Shown in pieces: positions 29,922 to 38,318 of a DNA stretch of 64,000 nt; the stretch's first letter is position 1, and every line of letters starts with the position of its first letter. Under the pieces are notes generated by a model, which had not been told where the DNA came from, did not search any database, and worked only from the letters and a program-made list of their open reading frames with translations. The position numbers and the translations under genes are program-made. The stretch is from Aquisphaera giovannonii. Lineage in GTDB: Bacteria; Planctomycetota; Planctomycetia; Isosphaerales; Isosphaeraceae. The stretch is from contig NZ_CP042997.1 of the NCBI RefSeq assembly GCF_008087625.1, positions 6,882,001 through 6,946,000 on the forward strand, read 5' to 3'.

Positions 29922-30131
29922 GCCGGCCTCCTCGACTCCGACCTCCCGGCCGGCGCGAACCGCTTCCTTGATTGACCACCAGAGCGCCGGGAAGCTACTC
30001 GAATTGCGGGAAAGGGACAAGGCGGGCATGCCCTCGGGCCGGTCGGCAGACGGCCTCGGTCGTGCCCGGCGGACGATCGGCCGTCGCGTCCGTACGAGTA
30101 TCTGGAGGGACGCCGGAATCCGGGCATGTAC

Positions 30132-30160
30132 CTGACAAGGAGGCAGGCGTCGGTTAGTAT
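30132..30160 (+). promoter_or_regulatory. Predicted promoter of the glycolate oxidase operon
   Basis: CTGACA (30132-30137) and TAGTAT (30155-30160) are 17 bases apart, leaving a leader of about 47 bases before glcD. Confidence 0.6.
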
Positions 30161-30213
30161 CCAGGGCGCGTCTCCACAGGCCCTCCGAGCCCGGGCTACC
30201 CGAGGCCACCGCC

Positions 30214-31686
30214 ATGCCCGCGAAGGCCCCAGCCACCGCGACTTCCCCGCTCGCCGCCCGGCTGCTCGGGGACCTCGTTGGCATCGTCGGCGCGGAGAAC
30301 GTCCTGCATGATCGGGAGGAGCTGCTCGTCTACGAGTGCGACGGCTTCACGATCAACAAGAAGGTCCCGGATGTCGTCGTCTTCCCGACCAGCACGGAGC
30401 AGGTCGTCGCGATCGTGAAGCTCTGCAATCGGCTGGACGTGCCATTCGTCCCCAGGGGTGCGGGGACGAGCCTGGCGGGGGGCACGCTGGCCGTCGGCGG
30501 CGGGGTCATGATCTGCCTGACGAGGATGAACCGCATCCTCGAGGTCAACACGCGCGACCGGTATGCGATCGTCGAGCCGGGCGTGGTCAATGTCTGGCTC
30601 ACCCGGGCGCTGACGGGGCGGGGGTTCCACTACGCGCCCGACCCGTCCAGCCAGACGGCCTGCACGATCGGCGGGAACGTGGCGACCAACTCGGGCGGCC
30701 CGCACACCCTGAAGTACGGGGTGACGGTGAACCACGTCCGCGGCGTCCGGCTCGTCCTGCCAGACGGCACCGTGGCGGACGTCGGCGGTGTCACGGCCGA
30801 TCCGCCGGGCTATGACCTCGCCGGCCTGGTCGTCGGCAGCGAGGGGACCTTCGGCGTCGTCACGCGGGTGACGGTCGGGCTTACGCGCGACCCGGAGGCG
30901 GGGCGGACGCTGCTGGGCGTCTTCGACTCGGTCGAGGCCGCGACGGAGACGGTCAGCGGCATCATCGCGGCCGGGATCGTGCCCGCGGCGCTCGAGATGC
31001 TCGACAACCTGATGATCCGGGCCGTGGAGCAGGCCTTCGGCTTCGGCTTCCCGACGGACGCCGGCGCGGTGCTGATCATCGAGGTGGACGGGCTCGACGT
31101 GGGCCTGGATCGCGAGGCCCGGGACATCGCCCGCATCGTCGAGGCGAGGGGCGGCCGCGTCGAGCGCTCGATCACCTGGCGGACCCGCAAGGAGCCGGAG
31201 TACGTGGCGATCTGGAAGAGCCGGAAATCCGCCTTCGGCGCGATCGGCCGCCTCAGCCCCACCTTCTGCACCCAGGACGGGGTCGTGCCGAGGACCAGGC
31301 TGCCGGACATCCTCCGCTTCATCGAGGGGGTCTCGCGGCGGCACGGGATCCGCATCGCCAACGTCTTCCACGCGGGCGACGGCAACATCCACCCCATCCT
31401 CCTCTTCGACGAGGCGGACGCGGCCCAGGTGGCCAGCGTACTCCAGGCGAGCCACGAGATCCTCGACGAGTGCATCCGGCTCGGCGGCTCGGTGACCGGC
31501 GAGCACGGCATCGGCGTCGAGAAGATGGCCCTCATGCCGCGGCTGTTCGCGCCGGAGGACCTGGCGGCCATGGTCGCGATCCGCCAGGGCCTGAACCCGG
31601 ACGGCCGTTGCAGCCCTTCGAAGATGCTCCCCACCGGAGGGCATTGCATCGAGCGGTCCGCGCCGGGCCGCCGATCTTCGGCCTAA
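30214..31686 (+). CDS. glcD: Glycolate oxidase subunit GlcD (FAD-linked)
   Basis: FAD-binding catalytic subunit of glycolate oxidase, which oxidises glycolate to glyoxylate. The 490-residue protein has the PCMH FAD domain (VPFVPRGAGTSLAGGTLAVGGG, VEPGVVNVWL, GYDLAGLVVGSEGTFGVVTRV) and the C-terminal VAO-type domain with NVFHAGDGNIHPILLFD and GGSVTGEHGIGVEK, both of which are typical of GlcD. It is the first gene of a four-gene operon with genes at 31708, 32685 and 33953. D-lactate and 2-hydroxyglutarate dehydrogenases share this fold; the presence of GlcE- and GlcF-like partners favours glycolate oxidase. Confidence 0.95.
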   Translation: MPAKAPATATSPLAARLLGDLVGIVGAENVLHDREELLVYECDGFTINKKVPDVVVFPTSTEQVVAIVKLCNRLDVPFVPRGAGTSLAGGTLAVGGGVMICLTRMNRILEVNTRDRYAIVEPGVVNVWLTRALTGRGFHYAPDPSSQTACTIGGNVATNSGGPHTLKYGVTVNHVRGVRLVLPDGTVADVGGVTADPPGYDLAGLVVGSEGTFGVVTRVTVGLTRDPEAGRTLLGVFDSVEAATETVSGIIAAGIVPAALEMLDNLMIRAVEQAFGFGFPTDAGAVLIIEVDGLDVGLDREARDIARIVEARGGRVERSITWRTRKEPEYVAIWKSRKSAFGAIGRLSPTFCTQDGVVPRTRLPDILRFIEGVSRRHGIRIANVFHAGDGNIHPILLFDEADAAQVASVLQASHEILDECIRLGGSVTGEHGIGVEKMALMPRLFAPEDLAAMVAIRQGLNPDGRCSPSKMLPTGGHCIERSAPGRRSSA

Positions 31687-31707
31687 GACCCCCGCGGGCA
31701 TGACCCA

Positions 31708-32688
31708 ATGAACCAGGACCCCAACCAGGGCGACAGGAACAAGCGGCGGGCCTCCCGGCGAGACCCGTACTCGCGATGGAGTCGGCTCCCTCCCGTCTTC
31801 CGATCGGGCGAGCACCGCCTCCCGGCGGCGGGCGAGCAGCCCCTGCGGATCACCCTCTACCTCAAGGCCGCGATCCTCGACCAGGCGGAGGCGCTGGCGG
31901 AGAAGGCCGGCTCGGCGAGCGTCCAGGATTACTGCGCAGGGCTCCTCGCCGCCGCCATCGAGGCCGACCGCATCCGCAGTCAGGTCGCCGATGTCGAGGC
32001 ACGCCGCGGCGCCCTGGAAGGGCTCAACGCCATCGCGGACGACCCGGATTACCTGGCGGAGTGGCGCGAGAAGTCGGGGTCGGTCGAGATCCCCCCTGCG
32101 AGGAGAGGCAACGGGCACGAGTCCTCCTCGCCGGCGCCGGACGTGACGATCTCCCTGCCCGCGAAGCCGAGGCTGCCGGAGCCCGACGACGCGGACGAAG
32201 GGTCGGCCGAGGATGCTAGGACGGGCGATCCCGGCTCCCCTGCCGTGGTCCGGATCGAGCGATCGCGGCCGCGGGATGAGCCGAGGGTCGCGGAAAGGAT
32301 CAGGCCCGAGGTGCTCAACGAATCCGCCATCGACGTCCTGATGCGAAACCTCCGGACCGATGATCCGTCGGCCGAGGAGTTCCTCCCCGCCCTCAGGTCG
32401 GGCCGCCAGGTCCGGGCCGAAAAGGGAGAGGAGATGTTGCGGGCCCTCGATCAGGTCGAGGCCGACCTCCGCGGCGTCTCCGTCCTGGAGCGTCGACTCT
32501 CGTACGCGCTCCATCGGCTGGCCCTGGAGTCGCAGGTGCTGCTCACGGAGCTGTGGCCGGGCGTCTTCGACGAGCCGACGATCCAGCTCATCCGGGCCGT
32601 GCAGGAGCGGGTCGAGCGGATCCTGTCCGGCCCGGAGGTCCATTTCCTCCCGCCCGGCGACGGCCCGACCTGGGAGGCGGCCCCATGA
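31708..32688 (+). CDS. Unknown protein with ribbon-helix-helix-like segment in the glycolate oxidase operon
   Basis: This 326-residue protein sits between glcD and glcE and overlaps glcE by ATGA, so it is translated with them. I do not recognise the family. Residues 46-84 look like a ribbon-helix-helix DNA-binding unit: a short strand (LRITLYL), helix A (AAILDQAEALAEKAG) and helix B (SVQDYCAGLLAAAIE). The next part is acidic, Pro/Ser-rich and probably flexible; residues 210-310 are helical (LDQVEADLRGVSVLERRLSYALHRLALESQVLL). No signal or cofactor motif is visible. A DNA-binding autoregulator or an assembly factor are both possible. It is not part of known glc operons I can recall. Confidence 0.75.
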   Translation: MNQDPNQGDRNKRRASRRDPYSRWSRLPPVFRSGEHRLPAAGEQPLRITLYLKAAILDQAEALAEKAGSASVQDYCAGLLAAAIEADRIRSQVADVEARRGALEGLNAIADDPDYLAEWREKSGSVEIPPARRGNGHESSSPAPDVTISLPAKPRLPEPDDADEGSAEDARTGDPGSPAVVRIERSRPRDEPRVAERIRPEVLNESAIDVLMRNLRTDDPSAEEFLPALRSGRQVRAEKGEEMLRALDQVEADLRGVSVLERRLSYALHRLALESQVLLTELWPGVFDEPTIQLIRAVQERVERILSGPEVHFLPPGDGPTWEAAP

Positions 32689-33956
32689 ACGAGGCCGGGG
32701 CGTGCCGCTGGCCCGAGCCTCCCGCCGCCGGGCCCCTCGGCGACGGACGGCACGCGAGCGCGCGGCTCCGCCCGGGCAGCGTCGCGGACCTCTGCTCTGC
32801 CGTCCGCGACGGCGTCCGGTCGGGCATGGCCCTCTATCCCCAGGGGGGCGCGACGGCGATCGACTACGGCGGGCCCCCGGCGCGGCCGGGCGTCCTCATC
32901 GACACGCGGGGCCTGGACCGCGTGATCGACTACCCGCACGCCGACATGACCATCACGGTGGAGGCCGGGATCACCGCCGCCGAGCTGGCGACGGTCCTGG
33001 CCGCGAAGGATCAGCGCCTGCTCGTGGAGGTCCCCCAGGCCGACCGCGCGACCCTGGGCGGGGTCTTCGCGACGGGCGTCTGCGGCCCCCGGCGGTTCGC
33101 ATGGGGGCGGCCGCGCGATCAGATCATCGGCGTCCGCTTCGTGACCTCGGAAGGCGTGGAGGTCAAGGGGGGCGGGCGCGTCGTCAAGAACGTCGCGGGC
33201 TACGACCTGCCCAAGCTGCTGACGGGCTCGCTGGGGACCCTGGGAATCTTGACGAGCATGACGCTCAAGGTGCGACCCCGTCCCGAGTCCTCGGCCGTCG
33301 CGTGGACGAGGCTGGACCCGGGGCACGACCTCGAGGCCATCCTCGCGGGCCTGAATACGACGGCGGCGCGGCCGGTCGCCGTCGAGATCCTCGATGCCCA
33401 CTCGGCCGCGATCGTCGGCGAGGACGCGGGCCTCCCCGCCGCTCAACGCGTCCTCGCGGTCGGGTTCGAGGGGAGTGCGGACTCGGTCCGCTGGCAGCTC
33501 GACCGCCTCGAGGAAGAGCTGCCGCCCGGGCGGGTCACGCGGGCCGAGGGTGACGGGGCCGAGCGACTTTGGGCGGGGCTCACCGAGTTCCAGGTTCAGG
33601 CCCCCGGGCCCGTCTCCGTCGTCGTCGCGATGAGGCCGTCCCGGGTGGCGTGGTTCCTGGACGTGGTCGACGGCTCGCCCTGGACGTTCCAGTGCCACGC
33701 GGGGGACGGCATCGTGCGGCTGCATGGCCTCGACGACCCGGGCGAGGACGCCATGGCCGGCCGCATCGAGTCGCTCCGGGGATTGGCTCGCGAGGCGGAT
33801 GGAACCTTGATCGTCCCCCGCTGCCCGACGGCCTGGAAGCCCCGCCTCCGGGTATGGGGCGATCCGCGCCCGGACTGGGGACTCGCGGCGAAGGTGAAGC
33901 ACGCCCTCGATCCTGACGGGGCGCTCAATCCGGGCCGTTTCGTAGGTTCAACATGA
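32685..33956 (+). CDS. glcE: Glycolate oxidase FAD-binding subunit GlcE
   Basis: This 423-residue protein is a second FAD-binding subunit. It has a PCMH-type fold with MALYPQGGATAIDYGG, MTITVEAGITAAELATVLAAKDQRL, the TLGGVFATGVCGPRRFAWG block and VKGGGRVVKNVAGYDLPKLLTGSLGTLGILTS; the last is a hallmark of GlcE. The C-terminal half is shorter than GlcD and ends LDPDGALNPGRFVG. The start codon overlaps the stop of the preceding gene by ATGA (32685-32688), and the stop overlaps the glcF start by ATGA (33953-33956), so translation is coupled across the operon. Confidence 0.93.
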   Translation: MNEAGACRWPEPPAAGPLGDGRHASARLRPGSVADLCSAVRDGVRSGMALYPQGGATAIDYGGPPARPGVLIDTRGLDRVIDYPHADMTITVEAGITAAELATVLAAKDQRLLVEVPQADRATLGGVFATGVCGPRRFAWGRPRDQIIGVRFVTSEGVEVKGGGRVVKNVAGYDLPKLLTGSLGTLGILTSMTLKVRPRPESSAVAWTRLDPGHDLEAILAGLNTTAARPVAVEILDAHSAAIVGEDAGLPAAQRVLAVGFEGSADSVRWQLDRLEEELPPGRVTRAEGDGAERLWAGLTEFQVQAPGPVSVVVAMRPSRVAWFLDVVDGSPWTFQCHAGDGIVRLHGLDDPGEDAMAGRIESLRGLAREADGTLIVPRCPTAWKPRLRVWGDPRPDWGLAAKVKHALDPDGALNPGRFVGST

Positions 33957-35299
33957 CCGCGCCGACCGACGTGATGCAGGATCGTGCGGGCGTCGACCTC
34001 GACTGGCTGTCGCGGAGGATCGACTACCGCCACTTCCAGGAGTGCGTCCACTGCGGCCTCTGCACGGCGAGCTGCCCGACGTACCTGGAGACGTCGAACG
34101 AGAACGACAGCCCGCGAGGGCGGATCTACCTGATGCGGGCCGTGCTCGATCGTCGCCTCGGCATGGGCGACGCCGTCCGCCGCCACCTCGACCTCTGCCT
34201 CGACTGCCGCGCCTGCGAGTCCGCCTGCCCCTCGGGCGTCCGCTACGGCGCCCTGATCGAACCGTTCCGGCTCGCCATGAGCCGGCCGGTCGCCGGCGTC
34301 CCTCGCCGCGGCCGGCTCGAGCGGTGGGTGGTCCAGCACCTCTTCCCGCACTCGAGGCGGGTCCGCGCGGCCCTGTTCCCGGCGTGGGTCGCCCAGAAGA
34401 TCGGGCTCATCGACCTGGCCGAGCGCACGGGGGCGACCGGGCTGCTGCCGGCCACGCTGAGGTCGCTGGTCGCCATGCTCCCGCCGCTCTCGCGGCCCGG
34501 ATCGAGGCTCCCGCAGGTCCTCCCGCCGATCGGCCCGAGGCGGGCCCGCGTCGCGCTGTTCACCGGCTGCGTCGCCGACGCCCTCCAGCCGGGGACGAAC
34601 CGGGCCACGGCCCGGGTGCTCCGGCGGAACGGCTGCGAGGTGATCGTGCCCCGCTCGCAGGCCTGCTGCGGAGCGATGCACTACCACTCCGGGGTCGAGG
34701 CGCCCGCGTGGGACCTCGCCCGCCGAAACATCGAGGCCTTCCCTTCCGCGGACGTGGACGCGATCGTGGTGAATGCCGCCGGTTGCGGCGCCTTCATGAA
34801 GGACTATCCGCACGTCCTGCCGGACGTCGATCGCGAACGGGCGGCGCTGTTCGCGGAGCGGGTGGCGGACGTCTCGGAATTCCTCGACGGCCTGGGCCCG
34901 GCCACGCCGGTCCACCCCGTCCCCCTGAAGGTGGCGTACCACGACGCCTGCCACCTCTGCCACGCCCAGCAGGTCCGCTCCCAGCCCCGCCGGCTCCTGG
35001 AGTCGATCCCGGGCCTGGTGCTCGTCCCCCTGGAGGAATCCGAGCTCTGCTGCGGTGCGGCCGGGACCTACAACCTGACGCAGCCCGAGATGTCCGCGCA
35101 ACTGGCGAGTCGCAAGATGGACCGGATCGAGGCGAGCGGCGCCGACGCCGTCGCGGCGGGGAACATCGGCTGCCTGCTCCAGATCGCCCGCGAGGCGAAG
35201 AGGCGGGGCAGCCGGGTGAAGGTGCTGCATACCGTCGACCTGCTCGACATGGCCTACGAGGGCGACGCTCGCGGGGCCGACCGCCTCAATGGGCGGTGA
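33953..35299 (+). CDS. glcF: Glycolate oxidase iron-sulfur subunit GlcF
   Basis: Electron-transfer subunit of glycolate oxidase, 448 residues. Two cysteine clusters near the N-terminus (Cys31, 34, 37, 41 and Cys82, 85, 88, 92) form 4Fe-4S sites. Two CCG-type motifs follow ([12 protein letters not shown] and [12 protein letters not shown]), with DACHLCHAQ between them, as in other GlcF and heterodisulfide reductase-like proteins. The start overlaps the glcE stop by ATGA. The last 14 bases overlap the convergent aceA gene tail to tail. Electrons probably pass from GlcDE through this subunit to the respiratory chain. Confidence 0.95.
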
Positions 35300-36587
35300 C
35301 GACGTCGAACTGCGCCTCCTCCGTCGAGCCGGCGAGGGCCGTGGTGGACGACTTGCCCGCCGCCACGCACTGGGAGACCTGATCGAAGTAGCCGGTCCCC
35401 ACGAACCGCTGGTGCTTCACGGCGCGGTAGCCGGACTGGTCCTCGCGCGCGAATTCCTGCTGCTGGATCCTCGCGTAGGCGGCCATGCCCGCGTCCCGGT
35501 AGGCGCCGGCGAGCTCGAACATCGAGAGGTTGAGCACGTGGAAGCCGGCGAGCGTGATGAACTGGAACCGGTATCCCATCGCGCCGAGCTCGCGCTGGAA
35601 CCCGGCGATGGCCGCGTCGTCGAGCTTGGCCTTCCAGTTGAAGGACGGGGAGCAGTTGTAGGCCAGGAGCTTGCCCGGGAACTCGTCGTGGATGGCCTCG
35701 GCGAACCGGCGGGCCTCCGCGAGGTTCGGCTCCGAGGTCTCGCACCAGAGCACGTCCGCGTAGGGGGCGTAGGAGAGCCCGCGGCGGATCGCGGCGCGGA
35801 GGCCGCCCTCCTGGACGAAGAAGCCCTCGGGGGTCCGTTCGCCGTTGAGGAAGGGCCGGTCCCGCGGGTCCACGTCGCTGGTCAGGAGGTGCGCGGAGAG
35901 GGCGTCGGTCCGGGCCACCAGGACGGTCGGGACGTCGAGGACGTCCTGCGCGAGCCTCGCGGAGTTGAGGGCCCGGAGGAACTGCGAGGTGGGCACGAGG
36001 ACCTTGCCGCCCATGTGGCCGCACTTCTTCTCGCTGGCGAGCTGGTCCTCGAAGTGGACGCCCGCGGCGCCGGCCTCGATCATCGCCTTCATGATCTCGA
36101 AGGCGTTGAGCGGGCCGCCGAACCCGGCCTCGGCGTCGGCGACGATGGGCGCGAAGTAGTCGACCTCGTCGCGGCCCTCGGCGTGCTGGATCTGGTCGGC
36201 CCGGCGGAAGGCGTTGTTGATCGCCCGGGCGAGGGCCGGCGCGCTGTTGCAGGGATAGAGGCTCTGATCGGGGTACATCTGGCCGGCGAGGTTGGCGTCC
36301 GCGGCGACCTGCCAGCCGCTCAGGTAGATCGCCTTCAGGCCGGCCTCCACCATCTGGACGGCCTGGTTCCCCGTCACGGCGCCGAGGGCGGGGACGAAGG
36401 CCTCGGTGTGGAGCAGCTGCCAGAGCTTCTCCGCCCCGCGCCGGGCCAGCGTGCATTCGATGTGGACCGAGCCGCGGAGCCGCACGACGTCCGCGGCATC
36501 GTAGTCGCGCCGGATCCCCTGCCAGCGGGGATCGGAAGCCCATCGCTCGCGGAGCTCGGCGGCGGAGGGCGGTCGGTAGAATTCCAT
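35286..36587 (-). CDS. aceA: Isocitrate lyase
   Basis: Glyoxylate shunt enzyme that splits isocitrate into glyoxylate and succinate. The 433-residue protein has the catalytic KKCGH motif with Cys189, followed by MGGKVLVPT; the [22 protein letters not shown] start; [39 protein letters not shown]; and [12 protein letters not shown] near the middle. It keeps the length of the bacterial aceA type. It follows aceB by 23 bases on the minus strand. The start at 36587 has GGGAG nine bases upstream. The 3' end overlaps glcF, so the two glyoxylate operons converge. Confidence 0.97.
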
Positions 36588-36610
36588 GGCGGTCACTCCC
36601 GGACGGGGCG

Positions 36611-38221
36611 TCATTCCAGGTACTTGTACGCGGGCAGGGTCAGGAACTCGACGAGCGTGGGGCTCGTGGTGACCTCGTCGAAGATCTCCCGCGCGATCGG
36701 GAACTTGCCCGAGTCGTAGGCCTCCGGCCCGAGGTCCGCGCGGATCTTGGCGAGCTCCTCGTCCATGAACTGTCGGAACAGCTCGACGGTGATCTTGCGG
36801 CCGTCGTCGAGCTTCCCCGCGGGGTGTCGGATCCATTGCCAGATCTGGGTGCGCGAGATCTCGCAGGTGGCGGCGTCCTCCATCAGGTTGAAGATGGGGA
36901 CGCAGCCGCTGCCGCGCAGCCAGCTCTCCAGGTAGCGGATCCCGACGTTGATGTTGATGCGGAGGCCGGCCTCGGTGATCGGGCCGGCCGGCACGGCCAG
37001 CAGGTCGGCCGCCGTGACGTTCACGTCGTCGCGGAGCCGGCCGAGCTGATTGGGGCCGGGCATCCGCTCGTCGAAGACCTCCAGGGCGACCGGCACGAGG
37101 CCCGGATGGGCCACCCACGTGCCGTCGTGGCCGTCGGTCGCCTCGCGGACCTTGTCGTCGCGGACCCTCCGGAGCGCGTCCTCGTTCGCCGCGGGGTCGC
37201 CCTTGATGGGTATCTGCGCCGCCATCCCGCCCATGGCGAAGGCCCCGCGGCGGTGGCAGGTCCGGATCGTCAGCAGGGAGTACGACCTCAGGAAGTGGGT
37301 CGTCATGGTGACCAGCGAGCGGTCCGGCAGGACGAACTCGGGCCGGTTGCGGAACTTCTTGATGAAGCTGAAGATGTAGTCCCAGCGCCCGCAGTTCAGC
37401 CCGACGATGTGGTCGCGGAGCTCGTAGAGGATCTCGTCCATCTCGAACGCCGCGAGGATGGTCTCGACCAGGACGGTCGCCCTGGCGGTGCCCACCGGCA
37501 GGCCCAGCGCCTGCTCGGCCCGGGTGAAGACGTCGTTCCAGAGCCGGGCCTCGAGGTGGCCCTCCAGCTTGGGCAGGTAGTAGTAGGGGCCGCTCCCCTT
37601 CGCCTTCAGGACGGCGGCGTTGTGGAAGAGGTAGAGGGCGAAGTCGAAGATCGAGCCCGAGGCCGGCCGGCCGTCCACCAGGACGTGGGCCTCGTCGAGG
37701 TGCCAGCCCCGCGGGCGGACCATCAGGATGGCCGGGTTCGATCGGACGCGGTACTTCTTCCCCTCCGGGCTGTCGTAGGCGATGTCGCCTCGGTTGGCGT
37801 CGCGGACGTTGATCTGGCCCTCGATCGTCCCGCCCCACGTGGGTGAATGGGCGTCCTCGAAATCCGCCATGAAGACGCGGGCCCCCGAATTGAGGGCGTT
37901 GATGACCATCTTCCGGTCCACCGGCCCGGTGATCTCCACGCGGCGGTCGAGCAGGTCGTCCGGGATCGGGGCGACCTTCCAGTCGGACTCGCGGATCGGG
38001 CGGGTCTCCTCCAGGAAGTCGGGATTCCACCCGGAGTCCAGGCGTGCCTGCACCTCGGCCCGCCGGGCCAGCAGCTCGCGGCGACGGCCGTCGAATTCCC
38101 GCTGCAGCGCGGCGACCAGCCCCAGGGCCTCCGGGGTGAGGATCTCCTCGTAGCCGGGCCGCATCGGCCCCCGGATTTCCACGCCGGCGACCGCCGGCGA
38201 CACGGACTCGGATGCTGGCAT
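36611..38221 (-). CDS. aceB: Malate synthase A
   Basis: Glyoxylate shunt enzyme that joins glyoxylate and acetyl-CoA to make malate. The 536-residue protein is of the A type (about 530 residues, without the extra domain of type G). Family blocks include [87 protein letters not shown] and [17 protein letters not shown]. The start at 38221 has GGAGGG nine bases upstream. It heads the aceB-aceA operon. A LysR-type gene diverges from it and a LysR-box palindrome lies between. Confidence 0.97.
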
Positions 38222-38261
38222 CGTCGTGCCCTCCGCATGGGGAAAGGGTGGGCGAAACTGG

Positions 38262-38267
38262 AGTCTA
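38262..38267 (-). promoter_or_regulatory. Possible -10 element of aceBA
   Basis: TAGACT on the minus strand would start transcription near 38255, about 34 bases before aceB. No good -35 accompanies it, which is common at activator-dependent LysR targets. The palindrome at 38302-38318 would be centred near -55. Confidence 0.35.
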
Positions 38268-38301
38268 GGGACGCCGGGTCGCTCGGAACAGTCCGATCCA
38301 T

Positions 38302-38318
38302 TCAATACAGACTATTGA
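38302..38318. promoter_or_regulatory. LysR-type operator between aceBA and its divergent regulator
   Basis: A perfect inverted repeat TCAAT-N7-ATTGA fits the T-N11-A core of LysR boxes. It sits inside a longer near-palindrome at 38298-38326 with outer arms CCATT and AATGG, and within it ATTCAAT also occurs as a direct repeat. The region is strikingly AT-rich compared with the flanks. It overlaps the predicted promoter of the regulator, which suggests activation of aceBA and self-repression. Confidence 0.65.

Follow-up and report, generated by a model that had tools for sequence, protein, structure and literature searches.

The question raised by this locus is why a gene for a 326-residue protein, here called X, should stand between the glcD-like and glcE-like genes of a probable glycolate oxidase operon, and what its product does there. 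Glycolate is an abundant algal product, and a ribbon-helix-helix (RHH) protein encoded within the operon and overlapping glcE would mean a different control of glycolate use in Planctomycetota. No paper on a glcD-X-glcE gene was found among the open-licence literature. Our computational analysis of the gene, its conservation, its synteny and its predicted fold leads us to favour, with moderate confidence, the view that X is an RHH DNA-binding protein acting as a local regulator, most likely a repressor, of glcD-X-glcE-glcF in Isosphaeraceae. The operon lies in the window, by which we mean the whole 64,000-nucleotide stretch of Aquisphaera giovannonii DNA analysed, and has the following parts.

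30132 to 30160, forward strand: sigma-70-like promoter match upstream of glcD (CTGACA, 17 nt, TAGTAT)
30214 to 31686, forward strand: glcD-like FAD-linked oxidase subunit (TIGR00387, E 5e-138, below the equivalog cut-off)
31708 to 32688, forward strand: gene X, 326 amino acids
32685 to 32688, forward strand: ATGA shared by the X stop and the glcE start
32685 to 33956, forward strand: glcE-like FAD-binding subunit
33953 to 35299, forward strand: glcF-like iron-sulfur subunit, with a 4-nt overlap with glcE at 33953-33956

X begins 21 nt past the end of glcD, and the glcE ATG stands at 32685 within the shared ATGA, the overlap that the first-pass annotation had described. A scan of 29950-35450 gave the promoter match at 30132-30160 as the sole sigma-70-like match (shuffled sequences gave a mean of 0.2), and no terminator-like site was detected in the same interval (mean of 0.9 in shuffles); glcD-X-glcE-glcF is therefore likely to be a single transcript. 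Glycolate is only the probable substrate of the flanking GlcD, GlcE and GlcF homologues, because all three fall under their NCBIfam equivalog cut-offs (460 vs 568, 166 vs 284 and 311 vs 333 bits, respectively). Convergent to glcF on the reverse strand, at 35286-38305, are genes for isocitrate lyase (PF00463) and malate synthase (PF01274), the isocitrate lyase ORF and glcF overlapping by 14 nt at their ends; these glyoxylate-shunt genes fit a glycolate-glyoxylate locus. On the other side of the operon, a block at 29985-30030, judged by eye to be conserved with G002, which belongs to the genus of the window, and with G001, may be the promoter of a divergent ORF, which we take to be glycosyltransferase-like.

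Gene X is genuine and more than a chance reading frame, since it has homologues in 42 of the 45 family genomes, a codon-position GC content resembling that of glcE (0.745/0.500/0.896 for X and 0.758/0.547/0.915 for glcE), and a low dN/dS ratio against Aquisphaera insulae. A simple Nei-Gojobori script gave dN 0.228 and dS 0.63 for X (dN/dS about 0.36), and dN 0.225 and dS 0.71 for glcE (about 0.32), values that indicate purifying selection on X like that on glcE. The ATG at 31708, which opens the 326 codons, is backed by the A. insulae sequence; in many X homologues of other genera, the start lies about 14 residues later. A single copy of X was found in G000.

The family count was obtained with a profile of 33 members, drawn from the 34 genomes with a single-protein match (G006 was omitted, its gene being split over two contigs). 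That single-protein search had found X in 34 of 37 family genomes and in 0 of 22 others, and a second alignment comprised the window and 22 of 23 loci, L103 being omitted as partial. Contig ends cut the X gene in G006 and G137. The 252 genomes sampled from the rest of the class include none with a clear X and two with weak partial matches. One of these matches, in G170, is a small protein (E 5.9e-4 to the X profile) with sub-threshold matches to RHH_5 (E 1.6e-4) and RHH_1 (E 0.007) and, on another stretch, a match to AAA_33 (E 1.7e-4); a weak match of the C-terminal block in G234 (E 1.5e-5) concerned an ORF without a Pfam family and was set aside. Plasmid and phage collections gave no X match. 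X is a defined protein family, and its members share the following layout.

31708 to 31842, forward strand: residues 1-45, basic N-terminal arm (net +5, low pLDDT, conserved SRWxRLPxVxRxGE)
31843 to 31980, forward strand: residues 46-91, predicted RHH domain (a strand at about 47-52 and two helices, at 54-67 and from 72)
31981 to 32082, forward strand: residues 92-125, rest of the second helix, with a conserved DPDYLAEW motif
32083 to 32313, forward strand: residues 126-202, variable, Pro-rich, acidic linker of low confidence
32314 to 32643, forward strand: residues 203-312, conserved all-helical C-terminal domain

The assignment of residues 46-91 to the RHH fold is well supported by profile comparison and structure prediction, although single sequences do not reveal it. 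When residues 40-92 of the X family profile were aligned by hhalign with an RHH_1 (PF01402) alignment built from 24 matches in relatives (one of 25 loci, L124, was dropped for stops within it), the match had a P-value of 8.4e-8, a probability of 94 and a score of 33.5 over 40 columns, spanning positions 2-41 of 44 in the RHH_1 alignment. The best of 100 column-shuffled RHH alignments reached P 0.039 and a score of 11.1, a reversed control gave P 0.16, and the C-terminal block of X gave P 0.23 against the same alignment. AF2 modelled the isolated domain (residues 40-125) with a pLDDT of 80.9, which rises to about 95 in the RHH helices (about 90-97 for the helices at 54-67 and from 72). The structure tool VIA listed 50 matches for this domain with Z from 4.0 to 7.5, a range that is weak on its own, since the tool cautions that Z below 8 can reflect a common arrangement. 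Nearly all of these matches are, as we take them to be, RHH proteins: NikR, CopG, Arc, PutA52, AmrZ, TraM, MatP and RHH antitoxins. The NikR, CopG, Arc and PutA52 entries superpose at rmsd 0.9-1.9 A over 41-50 residues (Z 4.4-5.6), the exceptions being 2wvf (3.5 A) and 1arq (3.1 A). The strand-helix-helix layout that the first-pass annotation had read at residues 46-84 is thereby upheld by the profile match with its controls, by the superposition and by the small G170 protein.

Several observations weaken the reading of X as an RHH regulator. A Pfam scan of X from the window found no family at E up to 1, and Pfam, NCBIfam and PHROGs gave nothing at a curated cut-off on single members; the best RHH models in the Pfam scans of the 33 members were RHH_7 (E 0.07) and RHH_5 (E 0.13), both covering the expected region. 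Foldseek found no match to the RHH model at E 0.001 (best 0.12), and the Z values are low. A PDB sequence search with the X profile was of no use (best E 0.62). DSSP assigned no strand to the RHH region in the AF2 models, which are monomers only. In favour of the RHH reading, the strand positions that face outward follow the RHH pattern, with R47 in 30, T49 in 18 and Y or F51 in 30 of the 33 members; against it, the position matching 51 is usually polar or basic in RHH proteins, not aromatic. In the second helix, Cys76 is present in all 33 members.

Outside this domain, the whole-protein AF2 model has a mean pLDDT of 68 and a pTM of 0.38, with confident parts at about 50-100 and 220-310. The linker is net negative and the N-terminal arm net positive in 33 of 33 members, and residues 203-312 are predicted to be all-helical. 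Seven of the nine invariant columns of the family alignment fall in the C-terminal domain (R230, R262, L271, E274, Q276, L278 and Q299, each in 33/33). Foldseek found no match to the full model at E 0.001, and VIA matched varied helical proteins over 196-319 with a top Z of 8.8; from these we make no family claim for the C-terminal domain, and absence from the list excludes nothing. DUF982 was considered for it and not counted, as the matches were weak (four members, best E 0.088, in the C-terminal domain in the three that were located). At E up to 1, the model phrog_13890, for which no function is given, was found in three of the 33 members (best E 4.8e-4).

X resembles the CopG/Arc/NikR proteins (RHH_1, RHH_5, RHH_7) in its strand-helix-helix of about 45 residues, its hydrophobic pattern and the R-x-T positions of its strand, and NikR likewise has a larger C-terminal sensing domain besides its RHH domain. 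It is set apart from them by its basic N-terminal arm, by the length of its acidic linker, by a C-terminal domain that is helical and without an assigned family, and by the aromatic residue at position 51 and the invariant Cys76; it also stays below all Pfam cut-offs. We propose that two X monomers would dimerise by pairing their strands (residues 47-52), so that R47, T49 and Y51 would reach into the major groove of the DNA with the assistance of the basic arm. By sensing a ligand or binding a partner, the helical domain, carried on a flexible linker, would change the affinity for DNA, while NTGA coupling to glcE would tie the amount of the regulator to that of the enzyme.

Regulators encoded at glycolate oxidase loci have precedents, although of another type: the activator GlcC and the glycolate-released repressor GlcR, both encoded beside glcDEF, belong to the GntR family (PMC11323563). 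As a putative regulator X would share their location at the locus, but it would be an RHH protein inside the operon rather than a GntR protein next to it. A Pfam scan of X at E up to 1 found no GntR or FCD domain, nor do the Pfam families listed for the 33 members include one. FCD-domain proteins (PF07729) occur in 33 of the 45 family genomes, including five in G000, none of them inside the 64-kb window.

Of the 42 X-bearing genomes, 38 have X ahead of glcE in the same orientation, with at most 213 nt between the two in 31 of them and a gap of about 2-2.9 kb in the other seven. Among the 31 direct pairs, 24 share an NTGA between the X stop and the glcE start (6 ATGA, 7 GTGA, 11 TTGA), a count that may be favoured by the script, which picked glcE starts near the expected start. 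This linkage to glcE across most of the family agrees with the first-pass claim that the amount of X is tied to that of GlcE; translational coupling itself we only infer. glcD is upstream of X within 200 nt in 29 of 42 genomes and at 0.9-1.7 kb, on the same strand, in three; in the remaining ten (five of genus g17, G021 and four of genus g6), it is not near X. In the six from g17 and G021, X nevertheless stays before glcE, and glcD was found elsewhere in the three of them that were searched. Taken together, the RHH fold, the operon linkage in 38 of 42 genomes, the persistence of X with glcE, the lone promoter upstream of glcD, the lack of a terminator match in the scanned interval and the gathering of kinase genes described below support a regulator of the glc operon.

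Two kinds of exception, together with the operator search below, weaken this interpretation. In the four g6 genomes, X occupies another neighbourhood of nucleoside-salvage and SIS-domain genes: it directly follows upp-deoA in G024, G033 and G165 (where the neighbours were named from ORF likeness rather than Pfam in the case of G165), in G007 deoA lies some 3.7 kb upstream of it, and a SIS-domain gene follows it in G024, G007 and G165, the contig of G033 ending there. The glcD genes of G007, G024 and G033 and the glcE genes of all four lie at other places. Furthermore, G004, G011 and G023 (genera g3 and g10) have glcD and glcE 88-138 nt apart without X; their assemblies are 92%, 81% and 68% complete, and X may lie elsewhere in them. 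A GlcD tree built from 40 of the 45 family genomes and four outgroups (44 rows), in which nine of 41 inner branches are open, puts the X-less genomes at two places inside the X-bearing family, for which two losses of X would be the simplest reading. The operon position of the gene thus holds across most of the family, and the absence from close relatives that the first-pass annotation named as refuting its view is not what we see, although three of 45 genomes are without the gene.

A convincing shared operator upstream of glcD was not found in a Gibbs motif search of 24 upstream regions, which is a weak test. Because two of four settings in a first run had beaten their five nulls, the search was repeated with 60 better, dinucleotide shuffles per setting. 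Palindromic motifs were then at chance: the median real run was reached by 10/60 shuffles at width 14 and by 27/60 at width 18. For non-palindromic motifs the corresponding figures were 2/60 and 5/60, slightly better than chance, and none of the 60 shuffles at width 18 came up to the best of five real runs, but the sites of these motifs were scattered; these scores have to be read against the sequence that related glcD upstream regions share anyway. That X is an autoregulator, as suggested at first pass, we therefore still infer. By eye, many family genomes, the X-less G011 among them, have upstream of glcD a recurring GTGGC-like element that precedes a TA-rich hexamer by about 17 nt; the two are possibly the family's form of a core promoter.

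The operator result is also compatible with X being an RHH regulator that acts chiefly on other targets, in another pathway or at many sites, and that owes no more than its expression to its position in the glc operon, a reading that we regard as possible but rather unlikely. It would account for the retention of X in g6, beside upp-deoA and SIS-domain genes and apart from glcD and glcE, and promoter-like sequence is visible by eye in many of the glcD-X gaps of 100-170 nt. The position of X before glcE, directly or after the 2-2.9 kb gap, in 38 of 42 genomes argues against it.

An assembly, membrane-linking or redox-sensing partner of GlcE, docking through the helical C-terminal domain and using the RHH domain for dimerisation, would explain why X is linked most tightly to glcE, through the overlap, why the two remain together in genomes that have glcD elsewhere than next to X, and why the C-terminal domain holds most of the invariant columns. 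The glcD-glcE pairs without X, in the three family genomes and in five genomes from other families of the class (G039, G041, G042, G044 and G045), and the distance of X from glcE in g6 make such a role improbable; an essential assembly factor is disfavoured by the three family genomes in particular, and the first-pass suggestion of an assembly or membrane-linking factor has lost ground accordingly.

A further variant combines the two functions. Trifunctional PutA is described as an RHH domain fused to a flavin-dependent dehydrogenase, with autogenous control of its own operon (PMC5293562). X is similar in pairing an RHH domain with a flavin dehydrogenase that is associated with the membrane and acts on a carbon source, and different in that it is a separate ORF next to GlcE, its RHH domain not being fused to the dehydrogenase. 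We speculate, as a long shot, that X could act as a "split PutA", docking on GlcE via its helical domain, with glycolate-reduced flavin pulling X off its operator towards the membrane; the enzyme would then be the sensor, and control of the operon would track enzyme turnover.

Least credible of all is an orphan antitoxin-like RHH protein with no present link to glycolate, for which the structural matches to AtaR, KacTA and ParD and the small RHH-like G170 protein speak, and against which stand the conservation of X in one operon across the family, the lack of an evident toxin gene among the neighbours examined (no toxin library was used), and the long linker and conserved C-terminal domain, which are atypical of RHH antitoxins.

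For a local regulator of the glc operon, the gene content of the large X-glcE gaps is of interest. A PAS histidine kinase was identified by Pfam in six of the seven such genomes, which span several genera (at L048, L056, L058, L031, L061 and L063), the kinase of the seventh, G114, being judged by gap and ORF size only; signalling genes therefore gather between X and glcE. We do not claim a histidine kinase as a fixed partner of X, as G000 has several similar kinases elsewhere. The kinase at L056 bears a phosphonate-binding-type sensor domain.
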